From positions 6,123,215-6,187,214 of the forward strand of contig JAJEKV010000059.1 of assembly GCA_021234155.1 (NCBI GenBank): 64,000 bases of DNA, given 5' to 3'. Of this stretch, positions 7,641 through 63,550 are shown in pieces. A program made the position numbers and the translations under genes. How positions within the stretch are numbered: position 1 is the stretch's first letter; every line of letters begins with the position of its first letter. This stretch comes from Isoetes taiwanensis. Lineage: Eukaryota > Streptophyta > Lycopodiopsida > Isoetales > Isoetaceae. The notes below the pieces were generated by a model that searched no databases, was not told where the DNA came from, and was given only the letters and a program-made list of their open reading frames with translations.

Positions 7641-7708
7641 GGTTTAAAATGATTAGTAGAGGAGCAAGGTCTCATAAAACTTAATATCTTTTTGATAGCT
7701 AATTCGTA

Positions 7709-7899
7709 ATGACGGAAGAACGGGAAAGAAGGCTTTCATCTGCAAGAAATAATTACAAGGAAAAACATGCTAGAGAGACACCTCAAGACCGCGAAGCTCG
7801 ATTGGAAAAACGAAAAGAGTATTACAAGAAAAGAAAGCTGCAACAGGCTACTAGAGAGACACTTCAGGACCGTGAAGCTCGATTGGAAAAACAAAGAGA
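7709..7899 (+). pseudogene. Helitron Rep-helicase, N-terminal segment
   Basis: The ATG at 7709 opens a charged region with repeats of the type ETPQDREARLEKRKEYYKKR, likely helical, as found at the N terminus of plant Helitron proteins. The frame runs to CAA AGA GA at 7899 and is cut there by the TIR of the nested transposon. Joined to 19763 it reads through as ...EKQRE then Y..KKRKLQQATRETEEE, apart from one extra T. The segment duplicates its own KKRKLQQATRET motif, so the N terminus is a tandem repeat. Confidence 0.8.
7896..7899 (+). repeat. Target-site duplication GAGA, left
   Basis: GAGA directly precedes the left terminal inverted repeat and is repeated at 19759-19762. Keeping one copy restores the Helitron codons CAA AGA GAG TAT. 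The site is GA-rich, so part of the match could be chance. Confidence 0.65.
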
Positions 7900-7931
7900 A
7901 ACCATCATTCAATTAAATTGGGATTATGTCT
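7900..7931 (+). repeat. Left terminal inverted repeat (32 bp)
   Basis: Begins AACCATCATTCAATTAAATT and matches the reverse complement of 19727-19758 at all 32 positions; similarity stops sharply after that. Confidence 0.92.
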
Positions 7932-8613
7932 TAATTTTGGGATAAATTTTATATTGCACTTTTTTAGTAACTTTGTTAAATTCACTTTTTTAGTAACTTT
8001 GTTGCCCTTAGACTAGAATAGACGTTAACATATAATCACACACGGGAATATAAATTCACACCTTAACTTCAAATTACAAAATCATATATCATGAAACTCA
8101 AGTAATACACAACTTTTATTAAAAATGATTGATACATAGTAATCGTTTATCATTTTTCCACCAACATCCCCAAGGATATGAGAACCTTATTCCTTACATC
8201 CCCGAGGTATTGTAACTCTCATTGCTTTTACTAGGAATAGTTTTTGAGTCCATGAGTACAATACGGTTTCAATGTCTTAGCCAAAGATCGTGATCACTAG
8301 GATTTCTCCTCCACCTCTTTGTCCAACAATCACCAATATCTTTCTTTTATCTATGACATTACTCAACCGATGTACTGGACACCACCATTCCACGCCAAGA
8401 CCTTATTGAAGTTAACATCACCTTCTTCTTTGCAAATATAAAGAGATAGTCCATCCCAACCACACCGATAGGTCTCTAGATCTGCTGGTTTTACTACTAC
8501 AAATTGGTGGCACTCCACGCCGAGAAGGTTCATAACAATCCATGCCTAGATATTTTGGCCTATCCTTCTTAGGACCAACATAGTGTTTATCGATTGAGGA
8601 GGAGCATATGCCT

Positions 8614-10392
8614 TCACAATGCTACTAATGGTACCATCATCTTCCCAGCACTGACTAATGTTTTCCACTTACTTTTAGGGAACCACCTTCCAAAGAAATT
8701 GCTCGAGGATGTGTCTACCTCATCCAACAAGTTGATCACCTTCTTCCAATAATCTATCAATGCACGATTAGTCTCATCCCAATTAGTTTGCCAATGCTTG
8801 ATGTAGTCATTGATGCCATCCTTAGTCAAGCCCAATTGCTTGACTTCTTAGCTTGGTTTTAGAGCTTTTGGTTGACTGTAGAGGTATCATAGGCTTGCCA
8901 TTTGCATCCCCAGCCAAATTTCTGCCCCCACCTCTCCACTTCTCCTCCCAAGGTCTCATTTTCCATTGCATGATTGGAATCCTTCTCTCACCCAAAAAGT
9001 GAATTGAAGAGGTTCAGAATGACCTTCCATGTCGAGAGCATAACCATCCACAAAACTCTTCCAATCGCACTTTTCTATGATAGATCCTATAGGAGATGGA
9101 TTTGTACATCCATGAAATATTTCCAATAGCCCGGGAAAGTTGGTAACCGTCTCATTGCCTCAATACATGACTATATTTTCCAAACAATGCATCCACATCC
9201 TCATGAGTATGTCCGCATTAGAACCCCAAATTGACTCTTTCAAAAATACCCCACAAAAGTATAGGATAGGAAAGAAAACATCCACCTATTCTTATTTTGA
9301 CCAAAGACAATTATCTAGTTGCAAGAGGAGCTTTCTAAGGATCTCGAGGTTTAGCACGAGATGTTGAAGCTCCAACATGTTCCATAGGTCCATTCCTCCT
9401 AAATCTTGCCTTGCTAAACTTTTCAATACTATTAGGGGTTCCATCCAACAATGCACTATGTAGTGCCTCGCTAGTCAGAGGGATCCCAGAGGGTGACCAT
9501 TGTAACCCTTCTCATAGTTTTCTAAACACCTCATGATACTCCCAATGTGAAAATCCGACCATCACTCCACAACTCTAAACCGAAATGGCCATAATAGGTC
9601 CAGACTGCCCATGCAATATTGCCCCCAATCATTGAAATCACGCAAGGGTATGATCTTCCACATGACTTAGAATGTATTTTGAATTGTGGAAGACAAGTCT
9701 TCCGTATCCATTTTATCATGTATAATACATAGATAGTTATTAGGTTCCATTGCATAAGGTCCTCCACATCCAATAAGTTGATCTACATGATAGTTGATCC
9801 GTCATATGGTCCTTCATATGTTCCCTTTATCTTTGCCTTAGACTTGGTTGTACAAATTTATCTAGTGTCTCCTTCAGCTTAGCACATAAATTGCACTTTT
9901 GGCAAAGTTGTTTGAAGTTGCTATGGTCACATGCTTGAAATGCTTATTCCATAGCCTACTAAAAACTGGTGGGATATAGAGGCCACTCCAAGTTCCCCCC
10001 GCAATGCATTTATTTCCTCTAATATGCTCTTCCGGGTACAATGGGATGGGCAATCTCTTTTCAACAATAACTCCTACCCTGTTCATCCTTCTTACCTTAT
10101 GTGGCATGTTTTCTCGCATTGAAATCCACATATCTTTTCAAATATTTTCCTTTGCAGCTATAGTTCTGAGAGGTAGGCCTTACCAGCCGGTGTTCCCATG
10201 CAATGCAATTTTACTACCATTTTCATGTCTCTTTTTGCCGGTTGTGCCAAGAAGAGGTTGGAATTCCATGTATAGCCATCCATGCTTTTTGAACATATCC
10301 ACTTTCCATTCAATGGGAATCTTTTCTTTTGATCTTTCATCCTTCAATTGCATAGCCAAATATGGTGTACATGAAATTCCTCCCATTATCAC
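8614..10392 (-). pseudogene. DUF7869-like transposon protein, frameshifted
   Basis: Read on the minus strand in changing frames, the pieces fall in the order expected of the DUF7869 group. First comes a segment ending FSRLWNKHFKHVTIATSNNF with a Cys-type continuation (9880-10131), then a middle segment (9531-9773), then LDNC followed after a frameshift by GQNKNR (about 9285-9320), then GHTHEDVDALFG (about 9172-9210), then a C-terminal segment (8614-8835). The DNC-GQNKN and GHTHED blocks are the signature of this domain, which is common in eukaryotic transposon-related proteins and may have an RNase H-like fold. At least three frameshifts and several stops make it nonfunctional as read. It is the best candidate for the transposase-like gene of the element; that role is inference. 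Confidence 0.6.
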
Positions 10393-11059
10393 ACTTATGT
10401 TCCTGATATGTAGCTCTTGCTCCTACCAACTCCTCTATTGAACATTCTAACACAAGAAGCCCAACAACATTCACCTCCCTCTAACCTTCATCATAGCTTC
10501 GTGGAGAACAATCATAATCTAACTTGCATCTTTTGGTGGGATAATGTTTGAAAGTTGGAAGTGGCCTCTTGCTACAATTGCAGAACATTGTTGACAATGG
10601 TTCTACATCTATAGGAAACGTGTAGTTCCCCTCGGTGAATAATGTCCCCTAGGCCATGCAACAATAGTTGGAACCTCTAGTTGCTTCACACAAGCTAGGC
10701 ATTCTTGTTTGCCCTGAACCCTTTTCCTTCCAATTGTCATATAATTTTGAGATTGCCACACCTAACCCGCCCTCCCCAATCTTTCATCATTCACCGCATT
10801 GATAGGATCTGCTAGAACAATAATCCCTTCTCCCTATCGCCTCTCTCATGCATGCATGCAGATCTTGACCTTCTTTGTTTTTCCAATCGAACTCGAAAAA
10901 TATAAAGTACAATTTCCTTTCCTTTGGCATCATCATTTTCATTTGAGGTCTTTTCCTTTCCTTTTGCATCATCTTTGTCATCTCTTCATTAGTTGGAGAT
11001 TTTTCCTGCCTTGATCAACATCATTGGGGGCCTTGGGGATTTAGCATTTTGCATGGCAT
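10393..11059. other. Transposon interior, no gene recognised
   Basis: May hold the N-terminal part of the minus-strand gene, but no motif is recognisable. Short direct words such as CATCATCTTTGTCATC recur near 10930-10980. Confidence 0.3.
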
Positions 11060-11460
11060 TGACCTAAAATGCATAAAAACTTATAGTAAGTTAGCATATC
11101 CAAATAATATCTCCTTAGCATGAGTTAACCTATAATATAATATATTAACCTATAATAACCTTAAATGTTGTCACCTTAGAAAAAAACTTTTGAGGGTATT
11201 ATAGGTTAGCAATTTTAGGTTAGAAGTTAATTATAGGTTATTATAGGTTAGAAGTTTTAAGGTAGGTTATTATAGGTTAAAAGTTAAGGTTAGAAGAAGT
11301 AAGTTTACAACTTTTAAGGTTAGAAGTTCCGGTTAAAACTTCTAACCTTTAAATAAATATAACCTTTTAAACTTCTAAAACTTAAAGCTTATAACCTTTT
11401 AAACTTAAAAATTTCCTATAACTTATAACCTTAGCCCTTTGCAATAAATTTTCACAAGAA
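11060..11460. repeat. AT-rich imperfect repeats (GGTTATAGGTTAGAAGTT family)
   Basis: The word TTATAGGTTAGAAGTT and its complement TAACCTTTTAAACTTCTAA recur in both orientations, giving potential for extended hairpins. Noncoding. Confidence 0.6.
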
Positions 11461-13156
11461 GTTATAATGGCGCCATTTCGATTTTTAAAGTAGTTATTAC
11501 TTTTCGCTTTACACCCCTTTCCAATTTACGCTCTCTCTTTCTTTCAATCCCAGGGGATTTCATAGTGCATTTCGATTTCATAGTGCGATTTCATAGTGCT
11601 TTTTCTCGGTGTCCGCCGCTTCTACCATTGTAATCATCTTAATTTTTAACAATCATCATTATTTTCTCGGCTTCCTAGGCTTTTCGGGCCGGCTGGTTTT
11701 CGGGCTTTTCCGCTTTTCGTAAGTAATTTTTTAGGGAAGCTTTACGAAGTTTTACGTCTATGTGGTTTCTACAATCTTCTTTCTGGCTTTTAGAAGCCTA
11801 CTATATACATTTTTTTTCTCTGTGGCTTTTCGGCTTCTGCTACAATCTTCGCTTTTGGTTTTTCGCTCAAAGCTTTCTACAAAGCTTTAAACTATATTAA
11901 AGTCCTATTGAGGTTAGTATTTCATGTTCTTTACTTAAAGTCTCATTTATCTTATTCTTGTTTTTATTCTAGTATTTGAAAGTTCTCGTTTCTATCAGCT
12001 TTATACTGTTCTTTTATCCAAGTATGAGCTTCAGGGTTAATCAAAGGGAGTGCTTTTACTGTTTAGACTTTTACATGCATCAATCCTAAACCGCCTAGCA
12101 CCTTCATATATACAGATCTATTGCTTATAAACATGTTCTATTGTTTATATGATCTTGCTCTATATGATCTTCCTATATGATCTTGCTCATGATCTATCCG
12201 GCCTATGATCTTGCTTTATATGATTTTGTCAGATATCCTATTCTATTTCACTAGCTCTTCCTCTATCCGCTCTAAATAATGAACTAAAACAATGAACTAA
12301 ATATTGAACTAAACAAGGAGTATTATTATTATATATCTGCTCTAACGGCTTTATATTTTGAATTTCGGGTGATTCTCGTGATTCCCAGTGATTCGTGATT
12401 ATGCATTTTGTTAGAATAATATGTTGAATGGAGAAATCGCGGCATTGCATTTCTATTTTTGGGTTACGCTTCCACTAGGTTAATCAAATCACAGCGCTTT
12501 TAGTTTGGCATTGCAATTTCATACGGGTTTATACAAATCGCGCCAGCGCCGGTGAAATAGATCAGGCTAATTACTTTCTCGCTCTAGTGCCATGGATTTT
12601 CCTTATGCATGGACAATCGGCTGGTTCAAATATTAATCGGCCGGTTCTAGGTTCCCCGGATCGACCATCAACTCGACCCCCTCAGACAAGATATTACTTG
12701 AGTGTGTCGCTCAAAACGCTCTAAGAGAGTTGGAGAATCCATTAGATGCGCAGATGTCGGGCCATGGGTACACTTCCATCGCATCTATGGACATATCGAC
12801 TCATGCTCTTTAGTAAGGCTCATGCCAACAAATAAGTACAAGGATTTTGATTTATAGTATCGGGATCGATACAACACTGTTTGAGACTCGACATCCCGGA
12901 AGATGAGGATCCCGCCATATCGTGGTGGTTCGTGGGACTTCTTGGATTGGGCGATGAAGTGGGCACGTGTGACATATTGTAGAGATAGAAAGAATTCACA
13001 CCGAGCATTTTTGCGAAGAAGAAATGTACATAACTTTTTGAATATGAATACAAACTTCGCTACCGCAATTTTGCACTATACTTTTCGTCATTAGTTTATT
13101 TTTTATATGCAATGTCGAAACATTGAATCCTCGGTGATACCCTCCAAACAGAGACT
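11461..13156. other. Transposon interior, noncoding
   Basis: Contains the palindrome AATGGCGCCATT at 11468-11479, repeated GATCTTGCT words near 12150-12230, and GCGCCAGCGCCGG near 12541. No recognised coding region. Confidence 0.35.
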
Positions 13157-13202
13157 AACCCCAAGAAACTACATATTTTCATTAATGTAGTTTCATGGGG
13201 TT
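13157..13202. other. Strong hairpin, 18-bp stem with one mismatch
   Basis: The arm AACCCCAAGAAACTACAT (13157-13174) faces ATGTAGTTTCATGGGGTT (13185-13202) across a 10-nt loop, pairing at 17 of 18 positions. Its role is unknown; it could be a small-RNA precursor, a transposon fold-back or a short MITE. Confidence 0.75.
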
Positions 13203-14619
13203 GATATGACCTAAAGAGCATCAAAGAATACAAAATTCACAACATCACGCATGATATGATATATTCTTTTTTTTTGAATATCCAAATATACATACCTTTT
13301 TTCGGGGACGTTCTTTTGGCCATGCTACAAATGTGCCCACGCCACCAATCAGACATTCAACGGATGTCTTCTTGGAAGAGCCTCATCTTCATAATTGCAG
13401 CTTTAGAATAGAAATCTTACGTAAACTTATTCCAAGAGGAACACCATGACACATAGAACTTGATTCAAATCTTCGATTTTACACAATACTACAGTAAGCC
13501 AAGTTTGTTTTTTAAAAGATAGCATTCTTTTCTCCATTAATCGATAAAGAACCAGAATGCATTGTAAAAAAAAAGAGGATCGAAAAATTGAGAACAAGAG
13601 AATGCATTCGAATTCACCATAGTTCAGCGCATTATCGAATGGGAATTGAAGGCGCTCGATCGAATGGATTGAAGGCGCGATCGACGAATGGGATCGAATC
13701 TTCTTGGGCGCCTGATAGTCGATTGTTCTTGGCGCCTGATACTAGGAATGATCTTGGGCGCCCGATAGTAGGTGGCCGATTAGGGTGGTAGTAGATTGCC
13801 ACATATGCGCTTCTTGAAATTAATAATTAATTGTTATCTTGAAATTGCACTAAAAAGAAAACACAATTTAAATTTGTAAATGAGCCGGACCCGGCGGTTA
13901 ATTAAGGCGGTATAAATTTAAAAGGACGCTAATTTGAATTTTTCACGGTTGTAAATCGGACGGCCTAGATTATGAACACATACATATAAGTTTAAACCAA
14001 AACCCCAATCCTCATACTATCCGCACTTTGCAGCCTATATGCGTCTAGAGGATCGTCGGGCCGCCGAGGGCGCTACCGGTAGAGGTGGGCTTACGTACCA
14101 AAGCACAAATCCCAAGCCCGAGGCTGAACAAGCGTAAAGTTTTGATCCAACAAGCCTCGTAATTGATCCGTTTTTGTTTTGTAATTGATTTCCGTGTCCC
14201 TTTTATTGTTAGGGTTTCTAGGATGTTTTTCAACCCGTATTTTCCTCGTATGTTGTCTCTGTGTATTGTCTACCTTTCATATTGTTTCGGTGGTCATTTC
14301 TATTTGCTTTTACCTACCTTTTGTTTTGTGTGTTTTTGTTATAATCTTCTCCTTTTCTCGATATGTTTTTTGTTGAACAATTCTCCATTTTGTATAATGT
14401 AGACAAGTCTTTACTTCAGATTCTCCGTTCTTTTGACAAAGTTTTTGTAGCCTAGTATGTCTCTTATAAAAGAGAAGTGTCTCGTAGGTCCCCTAAGAAC
14501 GCAGCAAGGGATTTATAATTATGAGTGGTTTTGGTTGTCTCTCGCTACTTTCCCGGTACAATTTATGTTTTTGAAAGTAAGGCGTTTATGAAAACGCCGC
14601 CGATTTCATTACTCACCAC
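13203..14619. other. Transposon interior, possible 5' region of the FCP1-like gene
   Basis: Between 13630 and 13760 the words GGCGCGATCGAATGGGA and TTGGGCGCCTGATAG recur in tandem. No protein similarity recognised. Confidence 0.3.
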
Positions 14620-14907
14620 ATGATTGTAACTTTCTCAGATCTTCTAAAATGTGAAAAGAAAAAGCAAAACCTCAAGTCCGTGGACATCCTGCATTTAAAA
14701 CCAAGAACGGATGAAGATGTATCGGGCTTGCAGATTTGGCACACGCTTGTGACCATTGACGATACGACCGAAATAATGAGGCTCCGTGTAGAGCCTCCAT
14801 GTCCGAAGAAGATCTACCGTAGGGCTCAATGGTATGTGGAGATCTTCAAGACTAAGCGGAAAGATGACCGATTTTCATGTCTAGAGTTAAGGAAACGCAT
14901 CAAATGA
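14620..14907 (+). CDS. ORF upstream of the FCP1-like domain, unknown
   Basis: A 95-codon open frame beginning MIVTFSDLLKCEKKKQ, rich in Lys, Glu and Asp, with no domain I recognise. It lies on the same strand as the FCP1-like exons and may be an N-terminal exon of the same gene. Just upstream is GAAAACGCCGCCGATTTCAT, one of the GCGCC/GCCGATTTC motifs. Confidence 0.35.
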   Translation: MIVTFSDLLKCEKKKQNLKSVDILHLKPRTDEDVSGLQIWHTLVTIDDTTEIMRLRVEPPCPKKIYRRAQWYVEIFKTKRKDDRFSCLELRKRIK

Positions 14908-16600
14908 AGAAACAAGGTATTCGATCACATAAGAACGGATCCATTCTTACCGTTCCATTATTTGAAGCGGGTCGAAAAATAAAAAAGTATTGAAGAAGTT
15001 AAATTATCGCGGTGCTAGTTCCTTTAAAGAGACTCCAGCAAGAACGGATGAGGCCAGCAGATAACCTCTTCAAATTTGGGCGGGTCGCGGTGATCTATTG
15101 ACACCAAAAAATATGTGAAGGTCTCACCGGAGAAGAGCAATCAAGATAAAGGCCGCCAGCTAGTCCAATACCACAAGTTTTAAAAAGAGAAGGAAGATGC
15201 AAGTTCTAGAGCCGGAAACACTGACGTTCTAGGCATTACGTATATGACTAGGTGATGATGACAAGGCGAGACGGTTAGAGGCCATGAGCAAACTCAAGAA
15301 ATATGTCGACAAGTATCCACTGGCCTTAGCTTCACGATCCTATCCATGTCGACCGTGCTTTTCAGTCCACGGAGGCTATGTTTGTCGCCAGAAGATTTGA
15401 CAAGCATTTACGCAATGGAAATAGTCGATGCGAAGATGATAGAAAACCCGTGAAAAGCCAATGCCTGCAGATGTGGTGCCTTTTGATATGAAGACGGAAG
15501 AAGGTGTTGATATGGAATAAACTTGAAGATTTAACCGGCAACCCTCGATATTCACTTCATGATAATAGATGGCCAAAGATTCAAAGGAGGCGAGAAGGTT
15601 TTGATCAATCCAAGCACAAAAACCGGAAATCGGGCTTATTCTATAGAGACCCGTAGATTCAATGTAATGTCGATTCCTCGCTGGCTCCACAACAAAAACA
15701 GACTATCAAATCGCTAGCCATCGAACGAATGACATGGGAAAGACATTCTGTACAAAAGGTATTTTATGTTCCACAATAGGCGTTTAAAATGCCAAAGCCC
15801 GGTAGCTTAATCACGATGAGCAAGAAACGCGCGCCGATTTCTTCATATATGGCTGCGATTTTCTAAATACGTGATTAGCAAAACGCCACCGGGCGCGTTT
15901 TTATTTGTTATTTGTGGTGACGGATTTACAAGAAACGCTACCGCGCGCCATTTCTTCATCATGAAGAAATCGCGCCAGCGCCGCGTTCGTAAATACGATT
16001 AACGAAAACGCTACCGCTTTTATATTGTTACTTTCACGACTGCTTATTTTTTTTTTCTAACGCCCATATTTTATAAATTGTGATGTGGAGCAGCTTGGCG
16101 CACGCCAGAACCAAATGGATCAATATGGAAAACCAATGTCACCGCGACAAGGGCAATCTAAGAGTGCCGAATTCAAATTACTAGAAAGGACAATCGCGGC
16201 CAAACCATAATACAGACAAGAACAAGGCCACTAGATCAAAAGAAGAAAAAGGGGATGCACAAGTCGGCAATGTGAAGAGCAAAGCGGTGCCAAGGATGCC
16301 CGCAAGATTGTTTTTTCTTCCTCACTGCATGGGAAAAGTGGAATCTAATTTTGGGACGCTTATTCGAAAAGAAGTTGCCGATTCGTATGGCAGGTTTCCT
16401 CCGGGCAAGATACGCCTATTTTTGATATAGGTATCACAGAAATGAGAAAAGGCACAAGGATTGGATGATGCAATAATCGCTTCTAGATAGTTGCACGTAA
16501 AGGAAGTTATCTACAAGAAAATGTCTCACAAAAAAAGCACTTGACATCTTTCAAGATGCATGCGAATCGATAAAGAATATGAAAGTCCCGAAAAGTCAAG

Positions 16601-16888
16601 GTGAAGAACTGCAAAGGCTCTGTGAGACATGATGTTATTAGAGATAGGCTTAATGCAAAAGTACAACGATCTAATGATGACATTAAGAAATATGTATTTT
16701 GGTCAAAAGATTTTGTGAAGCGCCAAAAGGCGAAGAATGTGGCAACCTTAAGGGGATCTACACGAAAGTTAAGCGGGCCTCGACCTAAAAGAAAAGTTGC
16801 TTTGGTGAAGAAGACGGCGAAGAGCGAGTCTCCTTTTTCTATAAGGTGTCCATCGGGTTATAAGTGTGCCATCGCAGGAGGTAGGTGA
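16601..16888 (+). CDS. Basic ORF in the transposon, unknown
   Basis: A 95-codon frame with a Lys/Arg-rich stretch (SGPRPKRKVALVKKTAK) that could act as a nuclear localisation signal. Same strand as the FCP1-like domain. Not recognised. Confidence 0.35.
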   Translation: MKNCKGSVRHDVIRDRLNAKVQRSNDDIKKYVFWSKDFVKRQKAKNVATLRGSTRKLSGPRPKRKVALVKKTAKSESPFSIRCPSGYKCAIAGGR

Positions 16889-17640
16889 AGGGCCAACCGA
16901 CATCACTCTATTTGTTCTTGATAGCCGTGGCACGAAGATGGACACAGATGATTACAGCACCTTCTTCAACACATGCAAAGGGTTTGACGACCGAGATGCA
17001 TTATACTATCGCGGATAGGCCACACCGACATTTCCTACGATATGCACTAGTCAGCGCTGCAATGATGTCAATGCATTAAAGTGATGAGGCAAGCAAGAAT
17101 GATAGATGAAAACAAAGATAGTGAGTTTAGTACCGAAAGTAAGATCTCACATGTGCTAGTCCTTATGATAGCCATTATGGATGATAAAGAATATATGAAA
17201 GACTCAAGGGAAAACCAAGGTGAGAAGATTGTTTGGGGGTGCTATCGGCCAGATGAACCCCTATTGAAGAATGTTTTTATGTCGAATCCAATTCGCGACA
17301 AAGGGAAAAAGGGACCGCAGATGTGGATGTGGACTCGGACGAAGAGGAAGAGGAAGAGGAAGAAGAAAATCGGATTAAGACCCTGCCCTTAATTCACCAA
17401 TCAAGTATGAGCTACCGACGGGCGATAAGGAGTACCTGAATAAGTACGGGTTTTCTTTGGCCCTTTCGAAGTTTTCGGATTGAGCCTTCCGCCTTAGAGT
17501 CTACGTCTTTGGGAGTTTCATGTTGGAGGTTATGTCTGGCGGGAAGCTCGCTAGCTAGAAATGCCAAAGTGTGGTCTCGATGGTCAAGCCAAGGACTTCC
17601 TCGATATTTTTTCGAGAAAGTGCTAGAGGTGGCACCTAGG
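16889..17640 (+). pseudogene. Fragmented coding stretch, unknown
   Basis: Several plus-strand fragments look coding: one from 16881 containing TDITLFVLDSRGTKMDTDD, an acidic/basic stretch near 17320-17370, and one from 17440 containing FSLALSKFSD. Stops and frameshifts separate them. Probably part of the gene that ends in the FCP1-like domain. Confidence 0.3.
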
Positions 17641-18082
17641 GGTCCCCGCCAGGTAGTGCAAAAATAAAGCTTCCAGCTCTAAGTTCACCTACCCCGCGAT
17701 CTAGCTGCAGAAAGGGAAGAAATGAGAAAGCATATAGAGGGCATAAAGAAGAATATCGACAAGCAACAAAATTAACTATGCGGCCGAGAGTGCCTATCCT
17801 TCCAATCACATTGGAAAATCCGGCGGGATGTAGGTAACGCATAAGCGAAAGACAAAAAAGAATCCTAGATGATACAAAGGGGATTCTGAAAGTCCCCAGG
17901 TTAGCATAAAGAGTAATGAAGTATCAACCATAGTTCAAACACTAAGTGATGTGGTTTACACTTTCGCGCATCGAAGATGCGGTAGAGTAAGCTCATCATT
18001 GGATGTTGAACAGAAACCTAAAGGTATGTTATTCAAACAATGAAAAACGCGGCCAGCGCCGATTTCAATTCTTTTTCAAATC

Positions 18083-18185
18083 ACGCTTGAAAGCGCCATT
18101 TCAATTATTCCAACAGATTGAAAATCGCCAGCGCCGATTTCAATTATTCCAACAGATTGAAAATGGCGCCGCCGCCGATTTCAAT
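18083..18185 (+). repeat. Short tandem repeat with GCGCC cores
   Basis: A unit of about 39 bp, ATTTCAATTATTCCAACAGA followed by TTGAAAATCGCC, occurs twice, flanked by GCCGATTTCAAT words at 18056 and 18176. It lies immediately upstream of the FCP1-like domain. Confidence 0.65.
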
Positions 18186-18210
18186 TTTCTTTTCCTTGTC
18201 TCACAAGTGT

Positions 18211-18745
18211 GTGCTTTATTATTACGCACCTAATCCGGTTTTCTCCAAAATTCGTGTGTTCGATTTGAATGGAGTGCTCGCAAAACGCTACCTAAAGCAC
18301 AATTTCCTTTATCATGGTATGCACGTAAAAACCATTTGAGACATATACTGAAATGGGTATATCCGGTCGTATCACGAAGGAGATGTTAGACCAAGCTTTT
18401 CTTTTATTTCACAGCAATTTTGGTCGCCGATGGAGAATAGAAATATACGTGAAGTTTTGAGAGTAGTTCCCCAGTTACATAGAGATTGGGCATCCGCTTG
18501 GGATCGAGCAAATGTAAGTCATTCAATAACCCAAAAGGATCCTACGTAAAAAATATTTTTTGAAAATGCTTGATTATTATGATGGATGACTTGGCTGCTT
18601 CCTGAGAAGGAAGACATCATTATAGTTGATGATGACGCCTTGAAGTGTTGCTTCAATCAGTCAAATACTAAATCCACCATCCTATCATCCTGAGGGGATT
18701 TTGGACAAAGATGACTTCCTCGCCGCTTTATGCAAGATCTGCGTA
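18211..18745 (+). pseudogene. FCP1/HAD (NLI-interacting factor-like) phosphatase domain, captured by the transposon
   Basis: The frame at 18237 reads FSKIRVFDLNGVLAKRYL, the first HAD motif of FCP1-like proteins. Across frameshifts it is followed by HGMHVKT, an FWSSMENRNIREVLRVV-like segment near 18415-18460 (the FWS part needs a frame change), DWASAWDRAN ending at a GTAAGT donor (about 18513), then EKEDIIIVDDDALKCCFNQS at 18607-18664 and a segment ending DKDDFLAAL (about 18700-18725). This is the order of FCP1 homology domains, which dephosphorylate phosphoserine/threonine, for example on the RNA polymerase II tail. The classical DxDxT nucleophile motif reads DLNGV, as in some divergent plant relatives, so activity is uncertain. 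The gene is broken and sits inside the TIR transposon, suggesting capture or a standard accessory gene of the family. Confidence 0.65.
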
Positions 18746-19726
18746 ACTAAATAGCTCTGTGAAAAAGGTCTGGAGATGATAAAAACATAATACACCGAAC
18801 TTAATCTGGACAGGGAAATTGACAGGACCTAGAGAAGATCGCTCTAGAAAGGGAACTTTTGATATATATATATGTATACACGGGAAATACACTTTCCAAA
18901 AAGTTTTGAATATGAAATATACTTTACACCAAACTCTTTTCGAATATATATTGTGTTCTTATATCAGCATTATTGGTTCCCTGGTAAAATGATTGTTCTT
19001 TTTATATTACGGTATGGTTTGCTATACTTGCAATAATTTGTATGTATATACCGGCCAATAATTTAGGTGTCTATAAATACGTATGCATGAAATTGGCAAA
19101 CCATCGGGCCGGCCCGCACCGCTTGTTATTATGGCACATTCTATTTTTCACTCGCCAGATGAACCACGCAGACCTCTGCAGTGCCGCGCCAGAAATAGAA
19201 CTTCGGGGACGGCTTGATGTCGCGTTATGAATCCCGGCCCGCTTCTATCCCGGACGATCCCTTTGATGTTGTAATCCATCTTTATATGGAATCCGAGCAT
19301 GGTTTGTTCATGATCGAAGGATCTCAAGATCACCGCCGCAAATACCGCCGGCGATGATTCGATTAGTTTTAAAGTTTATGTTCCACTATAATACGCTATT
19401 TATAGGAATAAAATGTACGCCGATTTGACCCTTTGAAAATCCTCGCTCAGAGTAACTTGCTTGCTGTTATTTATTCGTGAAAACACTACAATTTCAATGT
19501 TTAGATTTCTCGCTATGCGCCGTGATTGTACTGCAATAATAAGCAATTTCCTACTTTTTATATTGCCAACATTCTTTCATAATATGGGTCATTTGGACCA
19601 ATATTTGATGCCCTTGCATTTCAACAACATAAAATGCATCTTCCTAGCCCGAAAATGAACTCAACAAAAGTGTGGTTAATTCAATATAATGGTCAATAAA
19701 TAGCTTATACTAAGCGATTTTGGAAT
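18746..19726. other. Transposon right end, noncoding
   Basis: AT-rich sequence with a (TA)n-like stretch near 18860-18875 and no recognisable genes up to the right TIR. Confidence 0.35.
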
Positions 19727-19758
19727 AGACATAATCCCAATTTAATTGAATGATGGTT
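19727..19758 (-). repeat. Right terminal inverted repeat (32 bp)
   Basis: Exact reverse complement of 7900-7931. It contributes an accidental ATG (19751) that opens the downstream Helitron reading frame. Confidence 0.92.
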
Positions 19759-19762
19759 GAGA
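19759..19762 (+). repeat. Target-site duplication GAGA, right
   Basis: Second copy of the GAGA found at 7896-7899, directly after the right TIR. Confidence 0.65.
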
Positions 19763-22700
19763 GTATTTACAAGAAAAGAAAGCTGCAACAGGCTACTAGA
19801 GAAACAGAAGAGGAGCATCAACAAAGATTGGACGAACTCGCACAATATCAACGCGAAATGAGAGCCCACCCATCTACATACAGAATAGCAAGGACGCTCG
19901 GGGTCACACAGGTAGAACGACACCACTGCGGCCCATTTAATAGGGAATGCATATACTGTAGGGCACTGTCATTCAAGGACGATGGTACAAATTGCTGCCA
20001 CGACGGACAAATCAAGTTGGAGCCTCTACAGCCAATGCCCCATCTAATTCAAAGATTACTGAACCACCAACACCCGAAAAGCACTAACTTTCACCAGCAC
20101 ATCAGGGCCTACAATAGTGCTCTTGCCTTTGCTTCCTTTGGCGCCAACATTGAACAATTTGGAGGACGGGGACCATACTGTTTCAAGATCCAAGGACAAA
20201 CCTACCATAGGGTTGGGCCAGCTTATGCCGATAATTCCGAGCCTGCAACATATTCCCAGCTTTACATTCTAGATGCGGACTATGCACATGAAGCACGAAC
20301 CCAAAATCCTCAAAATGTAAATTGCGATAGCGACCTTCTCAAAGAACTAGATGCCGAGCTACGCAATGTCAGTCCCTATGCATCAGCTCTCATGATGATG
20401 CACGAGGTAGAAGAACAGGCACAACGTTCAGGTGAAGGTGTGAAAGACATCAGGATGTACTTCAATGCTTCTCGAAACCTGGACCTTAGGAGATACAATC
20501 CAGCATGCTCAAACGAAGTTGCAGTAATATTTGTCAATGCAGACGGAGAGCCACCATTTGATAGGGACATCTGCATACATCAAAAGGGTGGCGGCCTCAA
20601 GAAGATCCCAATCACAAACCCAAATCTTGATCCCTTAGTTTACCCCATTCTCTTTCCCCTTGGTGACCAAGGCTGGAGCATAGGAATCAAGAAAGCGGAA
20701 ACATCTTCTACATCGACGTCTTCTAAGAAACATGAGCATGTGACTATGTTTCAATTCTACACCATCTCGCCAGCAAATAAGGAGGGAGATTGAACCCACC
20801 GCTTTATACCGCAAAGTTAACACAACAATTCATTGTTGACGGTACTCAAGAGTGGAAGCAAAACAATCTAAACCGATCAAACAAAATCAACCCGAAGTTA
20901 AGCAGTAGAGTTGTACCAAAGGTCTCATTGACTATATAGATCAAATTTTGGAAAGCAAAGAGGTTTAAGATCCCGCCCAAGTTGGTCATCCCGCCTTCTT
21001 CATACAATGGGAGCCCAAGAGCAATGCAACAAAACTACCAGATTCTATGGCCTTGATCCAAGATTTGGGAAAGTCAACCTCTTGTAACATTTACATCCAA
21101 CCCAAATTGGTAGAGATTACACACAACCTGCTACCGGACAACAAATGCGATGATAGGCCGATGAAGTTGTAATGCCAGATTTCACAAAGCTCAAAGAGTT
21201 CTTCCATGACCTATTCAAAATGATATCTTGGGCAAGGTGAAGGCACACACATACAAGATAGAGTTCCAAAAACCAGGCTTGCCACATTGCCATCTCCCTC
21301 ATGATTCTAACAACAAGAAGACAAGATCCGGAGATAAGCGAGGACATCGACAAAGATCAATGAAGCGCCGGTGATACCGTGCCCGTAAAACCGAACCCGC
21401 AAAGATCGCCAGGCATCAAGCATATGGTCCACGCCCCATCGCGGGCCCTCAACCCAAATGTTCCTTGTACGCAAAGCCAAGGAAGGCAGCCCAACCAAGG
21501 AATGCACAAAAGGATTTCAAAGCCATTTAATGACAATACCAAAGTCAACGCGAAATGGCTATCCGTCTGTACGAAGATCCGATATCGCCACTTCATGAGG
21601 GGCAACATGGCCTATTGACAACAGATGGGTAGTTCCCCACAATCAATGGCTGCTTGAAAAAGTGCACGCACATATCAATGTTGAGCGTTGTTTCAGTCGG
21701 TAAGAATGGAAGTATATCTATAAGTACATCCACAAAGGGCAACGACGCATCCATCAAGATCACCTAAGAACCAATGGGGAATCCACATCCACATTCAATT
21801 GGGACCCGAGGTAGCGGTATATCTTGACACGCAGATAACGCCTCTAAGAATTGAAGCCATGTGGAGGCTATACGGATTCAAGATGCATGGCAACTCCCAC
21901 ACGTACCGACACCTCGCCACCAATCCTACCAAACAACCAAGTTGTCTATTATCGGAAGGCCGCAAAGACAAGCCATCGAAATGCAAAAATGCAAAAGCAA
22001 ACAATGTTGGCGATGGTTTCCAACTCAACAAGGGGACGACCCAACGCATTATTGAATATACTTACCCGTAAATCCCCAAAGACTATATACATTCAATAGA
22101 TACGGGCGATCCGGAAAAAAGAGGGAGCGGAAGTTCAAGCTCATCACACGGATGTACAACGTGAGCCCTAAGGGATTCGGTGGATCGCCTTTTATCCGTC
22201 TCCTATTGTTAAGATATCAAGGGCGCAACCAGACATGCGCCTTGGTAATGGAAAAACTATGTTCAACATTCAAGGAAAGCCGCCAAAGAGCTCGGCTTAT
22301 TGGAAGACGATCTTTGAATGGGAGAAAGACGCAAGCGTCTTCGAGATATAATCCGGCCTACGCCCGGATATTCGCATTCATTTGCCTCATACAATGACCC
22401 CCAAGATCCAATGCGCTATGGGACCTCTTCAAGGACAACCCTACGTACCAGCGCATTTTTCACCGGCGGGCTTATTTATAACCATGCACCGGGCGACATC
22501 GGCGTCCTCTTCAAATGAGCGGTACGCACAACTTGGACGGGCTGCGAAACCGCGGATAGACATTCTTAGCCAATCTCCCAAATGAACCCACCTTCGATGC
22601 GTAAAAGGAGTTGAAAGAAGGGCAGAAAACTACGGAAAGCTCAACAGGGGGCAAACACATAGCCGACATTATCCTCGATGCAATCAGCCAACATCGAAGC

Positions 22701-29022: not shown

Positions 29023-29590
29023 TTAAGCCTTATTTTTGTGGTTGACAGCCATAGAAAAACGCTCACGCCACACAATATGGATAGAATGGTACTGTGCACC
29101 ACTGATGCCTTCTGCACTTTTCAAAACAGAGGAGGATTCCCCGTGGACTAAAATAGATGCACATGTAGAGTGCGATAACTTTTTAACATTATTTGTGAAG
29201 GCTTCACCACCTCCCAGCTTTAACAACATTTTATTCAAGAAGCTCCATCTGATACTATCATATGCCTTAGTGGAATCTAGTTTGATCTAAGCCACTTCTT
29301 GTTTTATTTTTCGCGCCCAGTACAAACCTTCAAAAGTGGCAACTACGTTATTTAGGATACTCCTCCAAGGGAGAAACACTGATTGTGCAGTAGAAATATT
29401 CGATGCCAATAAAGGTTTTATTTTTTCTGCCAAAACCTTTGCTATAATTTTGTAGAATGCGGACAAAAGTGTGATGGGACGCCAATCATTGATGGTGCAT
29501 GGATCTTTACTTTTAGGGATTAAAGAGATACAACCTCTATTTAATTTTGCATCCAAGTTATCAGCTTGTGTAAAATTAATGTATTGGGAA
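29023..29590 (-). pseudogene. LINE C reverse transcriptase core
   Basis: RT blocks in order: GCISLIPKSKDPCTINDWRP, ITLLSAFYKIIAKVLAEKIKP, then after an in-frame stop near 29288 KLDSTKAYDSIRWSFL (the first catalytic Asp block), then VKKLSHSTCASILVHGESSS. Downstream the GVRQG-PLSP block is degraded and the YxDD box is not found. Related sequence may continue to 28742. Not functional. Confidence 0.85.
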
Positions 29591-30255
29591 TGGAATCGAT
29601 TGACATTCAGCTACTAAGTGGGGTCCCGACGGCCAGAGTTTCCGAGTCGGGTCACCCAAGAACCGGAATGCCGGGACCAGCTTTTTATTTTTGGCGGCTT
29701 TACAAAGAGATCCTCCGCCAATCGTTTTACCCGAAGATCTTTGTAACACCAAAGAACGTGACCGGTTTTAGAAACGTGAAGTTTTACCCGCAAAGATCCA
29801 AAGATTTTTTAGATACGAGTTTAATTTGAGTTTTAGAAAGGATATAGTTTACCTTCAAGATCCACAAATGATGATGCAGCAAGAGACATGCTACCGTGAA
29901 GTAGCCGCGAAGTAGAGAGCAATATCGTAAACTCTATTTCCGGGGATGACCTATCTCGTCAGCCGGATTTCCAGCCTTACTTTAGCTTCAATCGATCGAT
30001 GAAGAAAATCAGATACCGCTAGAAGCCCAGCTTGAAGAGGAATTTCTATGAACAATCCAAAGACCAAAAAACATGGTTTTACAAGAACAATGTCAGAAAA
30101 CGTTGCCAAACAACGCCTACGAATCTCGCTTTCTAGATCTCTGCTTTTACAAAGAACTCGCTAAGATCCTGGAAGTACAAAGAAGCCAAAACCTAAAAAT
30201 GAAGTGCTAAGGCTTTAACTCTAAAGAAAACCCTAGAAAGACCTAAGGCGTACAC
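29591..30255. other. Insert 1 within LINE C
   Basis: About 665 bp with different composition interrupts LINE sequence between the linker and the RT. It starts with a segment around GGGGTCCCGACGGCCAGAG and contains many GATCC/AAAGATC words. No gene recognised; probably another mobile element. Confidence 0.45.
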
Positions 30256-38932: not shown

Positions 38933-38992
38933 GAATAGAATAGAATAGAATAGAATAGAATAGAATAGAATAGAATAGAATAGAATAGAATA
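38933..38992 (+). repeat. (GAATA)12 pentanucleotide microsatellite
   Basis: Sixty bases of perfect GAATA repeats, reading as TATTC repeats on the minus strand, at the 3' end of LINE B. Simple-repeat 3' tails are known for several non-LTR families. Confidence 0.97.
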
Positions 38993-55560: not shown

Positions 55561-57585
55561 GATGCCTAGGTGGCATGGTTGAGCCTAGGTGGGCATGCCC
55601 GATCCACCTGGCATAAGTCAGAGCCTAGGTGGTATGTTGGAGCCCACATGGTACGTTTGAGCCACCTTGGTGACACAGCCGGAGCCTGTGGTGGCATGTT
55701 GGAGCCTAGGTGGTACTGCTTGAGCCACCTTGCATGTTGGAGCCACCTTGGCATGTTTGTGCATGTTGGAGCCACCTGCGTTTGAGCCACCTTGGGAGCC
55801 TATATAGGTGGCATGTTTGTGCCACCTGGGAGCCTAGGTGGCATGTTTACCACCTTGTCATGTTGGAGCCTAGGTGGCATGTTGGAGCCTTTGTCATGTT
55901 GGAGCCACCTGGCATTGGCCCACTGGCATGTTGGAGCTCATCGGCATGTTTGAGCCACCTTGGCATTGAGCCTAGTTGGCATGTTGGGCCTAGGTGGCAT
56001 GTTTGAGCCTATAGCTGATGTTTGTGGCATGTTGGAGCCTAGGCATGTTGGAGCCACTTGCATGTTTGCCCACCTTGGAGCCTAGGGTACTGCCTGGAGC
56101 TTCACCTGTCATTGGAGCTCAGGGTGGTGGGCATGTTGGAGCCACCTTGTCATGTTGGAGCCTAGGTAGAAGGTTGGAGCCAACCTGGCATGTCAGAGCC
56201 AGGTGGCATGTTGGAGCCCATGTGGTGCATGTTTGAGCCACCTTGGCATGTTTTGAGCCTATGTGGCATGTTGGAGCCTAGTGGTATGTTTGAGCCACCT
56301 TGGCTGTTTGAGCCTATAGTGGCATGCTGTTGGAGCCTAGGTGAGCATGTTTGACACCCTGGCATGTTTGAGAATGCTGGAGCCTAGGTGGTGATGCTTG
56401 AGCCACCTTGTCATGTTGGAGCCTGTGTGGCATGTGTATGAGCCTAGGTGGTGATGTTTGAGCCAATCTTGGCATGTTTGCCTATATGTGGCATGTTGGA
56501 ACTTAGTGTAGACATGTTTGAGCCACCTTGGCATGTTGGAGCCTAGGTGGCATGTTGGAGCCCAGGTCACAAGTGGCATGTTTGAGCCACTCCAGATGCT
56601 TGAGCCACCTGGCATGTTGCCTAGGTGGCATGTTGGAGCCTAGATGTAGCGTTTGAGCCACCTTGGCATGTTGGAGCCTAGGGTGGCATGTTGGTTAACA
56701 TCGCAGAGTGTTTGAGCCACTCCCGCATGTTTGAGCCCAGGGTGGCATGTGGCGATTGGAGCTCAGAAGGTGATGTTGGAGCCCACGCAGTTATGCTCGG
56801 AGCCACCTTGGCATGTTGGAGCCTAGGTGGCCTGGAGACCGCTGGGCAGAGGTGAGCCACCTTGGCATGTTGGAGCCTGGTGGCATGCTTGGAGTCACCT
56901 TGGCATGTTGGAGCCTCATGTTTGAGCCACCTTGGCACGTTTGAGCCCAAGTGGTGCTGTTGGGAGCCTAGGTGAAAGCACGTTTGAGCCACCTTGGCAC
57001 GCTGGAGCCTAGTAGCATGCTGGCTCACGGTGATGCCTGAGCCACCTTGGCATGTTGGAGCCTAGGTGGCATGTTGGAGCCCGTGAACAGCATGTTCGAG
57101 CCACCTCAAGGCCTAGGTGGCATATTGGAGCCGCGGGTGGCACGTTTGGAGCCACCTTTGGCATGTTAGAGCTCAGAGGCATTTTGGGAGCCCGCCTGGC
57201 ATGTTGGAGCCCAGTGGCATGTTGTGAGCCACCTTGGCTGTTGGAGCCCTCAAGTGGCATGTTTGACACTGCATGTTTGACCGGGTGGCATGTTGGAGCC
57301 CAGGGTACATGTTTGAGCCACCTTGGGATGCTGGAGCCCAGGGTGGCATGTGTTGGAGCTCACGCGGCATGTTTGACATCTTGGCATGTTGATTCACATG
57401 GCATGTTTGAGCCACCTCATTGAGCCTAGTTGGCATGTGTTGGAGCCCACTGCAGCATGATTGAGCCACCTGGCATGTTGGAGCCAGGGTGGCATGTTGA
57501 GTCCATCGGCATGTTTGAGCCACCTTGGCATGTTAGGAGCCACCTCTTTGCATGTTATGAGGGTGGTACGTTTGAGTCCTTCAAG
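55561..57585 (+). repeat. Minisatellite of alternating 19-bp monomers
   Basis: Two related monomers, TTGGAGCCTAGGTGGCATG and TTTGAGCCACCTTGGCATG, alternate for about 2 kb (roughly 100 monomers), many with small deletions. Each monomer pairs in part with the other (CCTAGGTGG against CCACCTTGG), so single strands can fold repeatedly. All frames translate as GGMLEP- or LSHLGMLEP-like repeats by chance; I do not consider these proteins. Confidence 0.95.
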
Positions 57586-61356: not shown

Positions 61357-61746
61357 ATAAAAAATAAATTTACAAGAAAACAAGAAGTCGAATAAATCTT
61401 ATTGAGACAATTATATCATTTGAATTGGCCCATTGCAACAACAACATATGTTTTAAGTTAAATAGTAAGAATATTCCATGCTAGTTTAAACATCACTTGT
61501 TTCATAATGTGTTTGCACACCATTTTTTCCATGCTCGAAATTTACGCAAATAATTGCCACCGTCCGAGAATTGCTGTTTGTGGAGTTCCAATTTAATTTG
61601 TCATAGGCTTGTGGCTACTGTTTGAAGTTCTTGATAATTTGTCACATGGGGGTAGAAATGAGAAGTATTTAGGCATAAACGCTTAAGATAATCTTAGTAA
61701 AAGAGAAGATAGGGAAAGGGATTGCACTATCAAGATCTAGCTAAAC

Positions 61747-61822
61747 GTAGGCAACCAGGTTTGAACTGATGACCTATTAGATTGTGGTAGCCAATTACTC
61801 TACCAATCGAAGCTATACCTCC
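61747..61822 (-). pseudogene. tRNA-Cys copy 2, decayed
   Basis: Insertions enlarge the D loop and the anticodon arm; the GCA position reads CACA. The 5' acceptor and T arm are recognisable. Confidence 0.7.
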
Positions 61823-62248
61823 ATAGAAAACAAATTTGAAAGTCAAAACAAGAAGTCAATAAATCTTATTGGAGATTAACCACATCATTTGAATTGGCTC
61901 CATTGCAAACAGTACCATGTTTTAAGTTAAATAGTAAGAATATTCCATGCTAGTTTAAACATCACTTGTTTCATAATGTGTTTGCACACCATTTTTCCAT
62001 GTCGTAAATTTACTTAGCCAATTGCCACTCTGGCCCCAGAATTGCTATTTGTGGAGTTCCAATTTAATTTGTCATAGGCTTGTGGCTATTGTTTGAAGTT
62101 CTTGATAGCCAAGTAGTTGAACTTTTTGAATCTCCATCCAATTTGTCACATGGGGGTAGAATTGAGAAGTATTTAGGCATAAACGCTTAAGATAATCTTA
62201 GTAAAAGAAAAGACAACGAAAGGGATTGCACTATCAAGACGAGCTAAA

Positions 62249-62323
62249 GGAGGGGCAACTGGAAGCTTGAACTGATGACCTATTGGATCAAGAGCCACTG
62301 TTTCTACCATGAGCTATACCTCC
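62249..62323 (-). pseudogene. tRNA-Cys copy 3, decayed
   Basis: The anticodon arm is replaced by unrelated bases (GGATCAAGAGCC on the plus strand) and the T arm has an insertion. Confidence 0.7.
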
Positions 62324-62735
62324 ATAGAAAACAAATTTGCAAGTCAAAACAAGAAGTCGAATAAATCTTATTGAGACAACTATATCATTTGAATTGGCCC
62401 ATTGCAACAACAACATATGTTTTAAGTTAAATAGTAAGAATATTCCATGCTAGTTTAAACATCACTTGTTTCATAATGTGTTTGCACACCATTTTTTCCA
62501 TGCTCGAATTTCTACGAAATAATTGCTACCTGGCCTCGAGAATTGTCAAGCTAGGAGTTCCACTCACTTTGTCATAGACTTGTGGCTATCAAGCTGAAGT
62601 TTTGATAGCAAGTAGTTGAACTTTTTGAATCTCCATCCAATTTATCACATGGGGGTAGAAATGAGAAGTATTTAGGCATAAACGCTAAAGATAATCTTAA
62701 CAGCGCAAGGGATTGCACTATCAAGACGAGCTAAA

Positions 62736-62804
62736 GGAGGCAAAGCTCGAATCGATGACCTATTGGACTCGTACCAATTGTTTTACCATCGAAGCTATAC
62801 CTCC
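62736..62804 (-). pseudogene. tRNA-Cys copy 4, decayed
   Basis: The anticodon region reads GGACTCGTACCAATTG on the plus strand and the T arm is shortened. Confidence 0.7.
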
Positions 62805-63225
62805 ATAAAAATAAATTTACAAGAAACAAAAAGCTCTATCAAATTCATTGAGACAATTATATCATTTGAATTAGCCCATTTGCAACAACAACATGTGTTT
62901 CTAAGTTAAATAGTAAGAATATTCCATGCTGGGCTTAAACATCACTTGTTTCATAATGCTTGCACACCATTTTTTCCATGTTCTAAATTTTACTAAATAA
63001 TTGCCACTGGCCCCAGAATTTATTTCAGGAGTTCAATTCTAATTTGTCATAGGCTTCTTGTATACCTGCTCTAAGTTCTGATAGTAAAGTAGTTGAACTT
63101 TTTGAATCTCCATCCAATTAATTGTCACATGGGGGTAGAAATGAGAAGTATTTAGGCATAAACGCTTAATCTTAGTAAAAGAGAAGATAGGGAAGGGATT
63201 GCACTCATCAAGACGAAAGCCAAAA

Positions 63226-63300
63226 GGGAGGCAAAACTGTGTTTGAAACTCCATTTCGACCTATTAGGATTGTGGTGCCACTTTGCTCTCTACCCACCAT
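63226..63300 (-). pseudogene. tRNA-Cys copy 5, decayed
   Basis: Multiple insertions; only the T-loop region and part of the anticodon arm can be aligned. Confidence 0.6.
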
Positions 63301-63550
63301 AGAAACAAATTTGCAAGTCAAAACAAGAAGTCGAATAAATCTTATTGAGACAACTATATCATTTGAATTGGCCCATTGCAACAACAACATATGTTTTAAG
63401 TTAAATGGTAAGAATATTCCATGCTAGTTTAAACATCCCTTGTTTCATAATGTGTTTGCACACCATTTTTTCCATGCTCGAAATTTACGCAAATAATTGC
63501 CACCTGCCTCAGAATTGCTATTTTGTGGAGTTCAATTTAATTTGTCATGG

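Follow-up and report, generated by a model that had tools for sequence, protein, structure and literature searches.

The 64,000-nucleotide stretch of the Isoetes taiwanensis genome analysed here (contig JAJEKV010000059.1, positions 6,123,215 to 6,187,214; hereafter the window, whose own numbering we use throughout) contains an 11,859-bp insert at 7900-19758, with a gene for a DUF7869 protein in its left part and a gene ending in an FCP1/NIF-like domain in its right part. We consider it likely that this insert is a copy, non-functional as assembled, of an autonomous-type cut-and-paste transposon family that combines a three-aspartate (DDD) transposase, most likely of the Sola superfamily, with a phosphatase-like companion gene.

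Ends, insertion site and copy number

The insert is bounded by two 32-bp terminal inverted repeats (TIRs; 7900-7931 on the plus strand and 19727-19758 on the minus strand), which are 100% complementary to each other, and by one copy of the target-site duplication (TSD) GAGA on either side (7896-7899 and 19759-19762). It interrupts a plus-strand gene that we take, from its motifs, to be a Helitron, with an upstream part at 7703-7895 and a downstream part at 19763-20793; Pfam searches gave no match for the 343-aa host open reading frame (ORF) and no Helitron match for three downstream host ORFs. We extracted six host-site loci, namely the two window halves and four paralogs (L047, L048, L051 and L052). 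In all four paralogs the site is uninterrupted and without an insert, with GAGA present once in three of them and with one substitution within GAGA in L047, and these uninterrupted paralogs establish that the element was inserted here. An earlier note on this DNA had stated that removing the element together with one GAGA restores CAA AGA GAG TAT. These letters are indeed recovered, but the reading frame is not, as a stop follows soon after the join. The joined frame is not open because the window copy of the host gene differs in length by one base from all four paralogs, in a short run of T just past the junction. This difference may be either old decay or an assembly error: the I. taiwanensis genome was assembled from nanopore reads and polished with Illumina data (PMC8566536), so that repeats may be wrong in length by a single base.

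Searching the genome (1,658,258,908 bases in 1,110 contigs) for the 32-nt arm with up to three mismatches gave 3,429 matches, 1,719 forward and 1,710 reverse, and none for a reversed control. If all arms are paired, this would correspond to about 1,700 elements. For comparison with the window copy we drew eight siblings from the 17 end pairs lying 11-15 kb apart among the matches listed, giving nine full copies. Since the eight were picked for mismatch-free arms, and the sample leans to well-kept copies, the informative part of the end comparison is the stop of the inverted match alone, which falls at base 32 in all nine copies. Furthermore, an exact 4-bp TSD flanks 15 of the 16 adjacent plus/minus end pairs less than 30 kb apart among the matches listed, and 18 of 19 pairs when C30, C67 and the window are added; the exception is the 13.95-kb end pair C24, which has no matching duplication. 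The base-exact ends of a TIR DNA transposon and the 4-bp duplication described in the earlier note are thus both borne out, and the 19 pairs, checked for copies with other ends or duplications, agree in 18 cases. The 18 duplications are 71% A+T and have no fixed motif (examples are GAGA, CCTC and ATGC). Three left ends on one contig (G000:C2, positions 110566, 138722 and 161049) carry an identical 12-bp flank, TCGTTTACATAT, and therefore this block was probably duplicated after insertion. Next to the left TIR lies a 21-bp direct repeat (7957-8003, plus strand; units 7957-7977 and 7983-8003), which is found, slightly changed, in eight of the nine left ends (C258 being the exception) and is a possible binding site for the transposase.

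Several known classes can be compared with these ends. CACTA/EnSpm elements have CACTA ends and a 3-bp TSD, and do not fit the ends AACCATCATT and the 4-bp TSD of the present family. hAT elements have a TSD of 8 bp. Both these and Mutator elements, with a TSD of 7-12 bp (PMC10741241), do not fit the junction match of exactly 4 bp in 15 of the 16 pairs listed. The size of 12 kb and the long accessory gene would also suit a virus-like Polinton/Maverick or another mobile element of non-DDD type. The Pfam matches of the ORFs searched, which were a part of all ORFs, include no polymerase, capsid or integrase family, and Polintons have a TSD of 6 bp rather than 4 bp; we regard such an origin as extremely improbable.

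The DUF7869 protein as a candidate transposase

The left gene (8153-11097, minus strand) terminates about 250 bp inside the left end of the element and was traced by tblastn with the sibling ORFs p31 (E 2e-111) and p33N (E 3e-42). In the window it is a pseudogene, its frame broken at several places as assembled. Its DUF7869 (PF25273) core lies on the minus strand at approximately 8950-9360, has the GHTHEDVDALFGKYSHV motif and was placed by tblastn with sibling ORFs. Indeed, both this domain and the NIF domain of the right gene were recognised via sibling copies, the matches of the window copy itself being weak or absent: against PF25273 the window piece 8959-9159 reaches 15.4 bits (E 0.015), below the cut-off of 26, and the natural ORFs of the siblings L031 and L032 score 125.6 and 131.8 bits (E 2e-36 and 3e-38). 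The DUF7869 gene, already noticed earlier, was found in all nine copies. Searches of PHROGs and NCBIfam with the transposase gave nothing useful, and a sequence search of the PDB found no match for an L025 protein or for the profile of alignment A4 (described below).

The minus-strand frames of the siblings are likewise broken to a varying degree, but a protein search of the genome turned up copies with long open frames, among them L031 with one of 807 aa that stops about 200 bp before its TIR. L031 gave a ratio of non-synonymous to synonymous divergence (dN/dS) of 0.18 when compared with L033 and of 0.22 when compared with L032, calculated with columns of less than 50% local protein identity excluded, which lowers dN; these two of three comparisons indicate purifying selection on the gene. 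The window copy, C30 and C106, and probably also C67 and C258, share a frame break right behind the second of the aspartate motifs described below, which could stem either from a shared non-autonomous ancestor or from a systematic assembly error. As assembled, the window copy is unable to make the DUF7869 protein or the second protein.

The DUF7869 protein has three aspartate-bearing motifs, HDKMDQ, QLDN and GHTHEDVD, and the second and third aspartates are invariant in all ten rows of our alignment A1. We modelled the core of a relative, L037, with AlphaFold2 using an alignment with 11 relatives (A4). The model has a predicted local distance difference test score (pLDDT) of 76.1 and a predicted TM-score of 0.78, and its secondary structure follows the order of RNase H: strands 45-52, 79-86 and 90-97, helix 105-117, strand 126-132, helix 140-152, strand 158-164 and helix 173-185. 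D51 lies on strand 1, D132 after strand 4 and D174 in the next helix, and it is at such places that RNase H-like DD(D/E) enzymes carry their catalytic acids. In a VIA-align comparison of the model with the PDB, retroviral integrases fill the first 21 rows (Z 7.9-8.8, root-mean-square deviation 3.1-3.5), the best match having a Z of 8.8 and a deviation of 3.3 over 130 residues, followed by Mos1 (7.9), IstA (7.8), Metnase (7.5) and a CAST V-K structure (7.5). We did not use as proof the Foldseek listing for the PDB, a mix of Argonaute, UvrC, Metnase and Mos1, or the single BFVD match (8e-4), an RNase H. We regard a DDD transposase as the most plausible reading of the DUF7869 protein. The left minus-strand gene would then encode a transposase of about 980 aa, as estimated from its span, with DUF7869 as its catalytic core, and this protein would bind the 32-bp ends, cut, and join the element to its target with a 4-base stagger, as the fold and the 4-bp duplications suggest.

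Relatives of this protein also occur in bacteria. A scan of prokaryote genome contigs gave 13 loci encoding DUF7869 relatives, two of which lie within perfect inverted repeats: that of Desulfocicer vacuolatum DSM 3385 (L042; E 2.8e-18 for DUF7869) within repeats of 43 bp spanning 2,124 bp, and that of Candidatus Thiomargarita nelsonii (L044; E 1.5e-21, the gene being split over two frames) within repeats of 36 bp spanning 2,046 bp. Further copies were sought for both elements in their own genomes, and each was found there once. DUF7869 genes are rare in the phylum to which L042 belongs, PF25273 being found in one of 395 genomes, that of L042 itself; a search of plasmids with the L042 protein gave no match, and an IMG/VR scan gave 20 pattern matches and no confirmed relative. 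The loci L034-L041 of the same scan, with DUF7869 genes of 873-963 aa, are on contigs titled as cyanobacterial metagenome-assembled genomes (Synechococcales, Trichormus), which are probably plant or algal DNA mis-binned with cyanobacteria. Within the Isoetes genome, where a first look gave 9,907 DUF7869 candidates and 150 of them were scored, other families (L017-L030 and L054-L056) have open frames of 600-987 aa; for one of these, a second family (L054-L056), the element ends were sought and could not be fixed. In the left flank of L032 (1-600; G000:C1065), an ORF fragment looks by eye like the N-terminal region of a protein from another DUF7869 family (cf. the 320-aa ORF of L027), and here one DUF7869 transposon is probably nested within another.

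Which superfamily the element belongs to had been left unassigned in the earlier note, and in this respect we can go further: the DDD-like DUF7869 core and the 4-bp TSD match the printed description of Sola and allow a provisional placement there. Sola elements are described as having a DDD transposase, a 4-bp TSD, TIRs of 11-1124 bp and sizes of mostly 2-9 kb with some above 15 kb (PMC10741241), and the quillwort element agrees in its TSD, its predicted DDD core, and the ranges of TIR length and size. Sola, and Sola1 in particular, also resembles it in variable TIR length and is known from a moss and from bacteria (PMC10741241, PMC9033089); Sola has been reported from Physcomitrella and as uncommon in flowering plants (PMC10741241), and giant Sola-1 elements from Ectocarpus (PMC12477816). 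An FCP1/NIF companion is not mentioned for Sola in the available portions of these sources. Kolobok elements with accessory nucleases or KolX likewise combine a DDD/E transposase, a lineage-specific accessory gene and a 4-bp TSD, but differ in that their TSD is TTAA only (PMC9587614).

Several observations weigh against reading the element as a DDD transposon of the Sola type. At the level of the protein, dN/dS was 0.62 for L033 against L032, identity between L031 and L025-like proteins in A1 is 22-24%, and the first aspartate is on weaker ground than the second and third: it lies outside the conserved columns of A1 and A4, in part because some rows are frame-shifted or misaligned at this place, and the bacterial rows of A4 are unaligned there. 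At the level of the fold, the usable model is that of the relative L037, and A4 contains no protein of the quillwort element family; a full-length model of L034 was discarded (pLDDT 41). Best Z scores of 7-8 are typical in VIA-align for models without a clear match, Argonaute also appears in its listing at a Z of 7.5, and Foldseek found no match for the L037 model in the PDB at E ≤ 0.001. The flanks of the bacterial elements are also equivocal, those of L042, AAAT and ATTT, not forming a duplication, and those of L044 showing ATTT twice only with the repeat start taken at GGGAC. Finally, none of the 18 TSDs of the quillwort family is TTAA, the pattern of Sola3, Kolobok and piggyBac, none fits the AT-rich AWWT of Sola2 (PMC3627910), and the assignment to Sola is based on features of mechanism and size compared with a description, not on homology to a reference protein.

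The missing AWWT pattern would also suit a rival reading, in which DUF7869 elements form a separate DDD superfamily that shares the 4-bp TSD and the DDD core with Sola by convergence or distant kinship. In the open-licence PMC literature searched, DUF7869 is not named in any paper, which would fit such a group, and no paper treats Isoetes and Sola together. We regard a separate superfamily as unlikely nonetheless: those printed features of Sola that can be compared are present, the DDD core by prediction, and Sola has been reported from moss as well as from bacteria (PMC10741241, PMC9033089), in keeping with the bacterial DUF7869 genes found here within inverted repeats. We therefore retain Sola as the most likely placement.

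A divergent companion gene with an FCP1/NIF-like domain

The second gene (12588-18858, plus strand) is transcriptionally divergent from the transposase gene and was followed in the window as the pieces 12588-12881, 14640-14951, 15068-15331, 16080-17308 and 17506-18230 and a final NIF exon; these pieces are sequence matches and not exon borders. Its FCP1/NIF-like (PF03031) domain, degraded in the window copy, lies at 18247-18760 on the plus strand (tblastn E 8e-21), with borders mapped from a tenth copy, L053. NIF is the sole Pfam family above its cut-off in the second gene and falls within the final exon (51.3 bits and E 1.4e-13 for the L053 exon, 30.8 bits and E 2.8e-7 for C258; cut-off 21.8); the window piece itself gave no match to Pfam NIF, and a sequence search of the PDB with the NIF exon found no match. 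The pieces are matched in all nine copies, with the NIF region at the same place in each, so that the FCP1-like domain of the earlier note is a regular part of the family.

The general acid/base position of these phosphatases is the second aspartate of motif I. Here motif I reads DLNGV in all nine copies (VFDLNGVL in the window) and NLNGV in L053, and thus departs from the DxD of active phosphatases in having asparagine in place of the second aspartate. The protein differs from the FCP1/NIF-like phosphatases of the HAD type, which it resembles by its domain match, both in this residue and in residing within a transposon. By its sequence, it is perhaps a phosphatase-like, non-catalytic partner. 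The right plus-strand gene would then be a regular companion of the transposase whose product, possibly without catalysis, may aid expression of the element or regulate transposition via a host protein, for example the tail of RNA polymerase II. This role in expression or transposition is purely inferred, which is a further weakness of the overall explanation, and FCP1 was not found in the candidate papers from the open-licence PMC literature.

The alternative is that the transposon captured the FCP1 gene from its host and carries it as a passenger outside its own machinery, which we hold to be possible, if doubtful. In favour of this, NIF phosphatases are ordinary host proteins. Also in its favour, the second gene was not found in other DUF7869 stretches, namely 14 of 3.0-4.2 kb, three of 9.9 kb and 13 relatives of 3.6-12.4 kb; as some 10 kb separate the gene from the transposase in this family and most of these stretches are too short to reach it, its absence from them is not established. 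Against a passenger speaks the presence of the second gene in every one of the nine copies, together with its linkage elsewhere. When the best 150 of 4,716 NIF candidates in the genome were scored, 28 were found to have a transposase match, from the best 150 of that search, no more than 30 kb away, and 26 of these 28 pairs are divergent. Furthermore, 130 of the 150 NIF matches have no internal stop, in a hand count biased to intact matches. We therefore favour a retained companion over a passenger.

The two halves of the element differ in their rate of change: mean identity among the nine copies (36 pairs, gaps excluded) is 94.6% over the left 3 kb and 83.5% over the last 1.5 kb. A constant transposase half joined to a faster-changing right half recalls, by analogy, the Sola2-Fanzor chimeras of slime moulds, which likewise have a 4-bp TSD and in which a constant transposase part is combined with a very different other part and an accessory protein (PMC3627910). 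Those elements differ from the present family in that their accessory protein is Fanzor1, their TIRs measure 12-21 bp and their TSD is AT-rich; here, the right part has diverged and is not unrelated.

Other features of the window and implications

Elsewhere in the window we observed a weak reverse transcriptase fragment (29290-29610, minus strand; PF00078, E 2.9e-6, below the cut-off) and three tandem arrays: a 500-bp unit repeated 3.9 times at 61636-63548, a GGCATGTTGGAGCC-type minisatellite at 55692-57561 and (GAATA)12 at 38933-38992.

On a wider scale, DUF7869 might represent a transposase superfamily, unrecognised as such in Pfam, that extends from bacterial insertion sequences to giant plant elements. 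In the quillwort family it might have become permanently paired with a divergent FCP1-like pseudophosphatase that acts on host transcription or repair and thereby aids a high copy number. We put this forward as speculation that may well prove wrong. The present analysis puts forward a role for DUF7869, which Pfam lists as being of unknown function and which is matched very many times in the Isoetes genome, and it links plant elements to bacterial ones having inverted-repeat ends. It also supplies an example, amenable to testing, of a transposon retaining a phosphatase-like partner. If the proposal is true, many such plant genes could be annotated as transposases.

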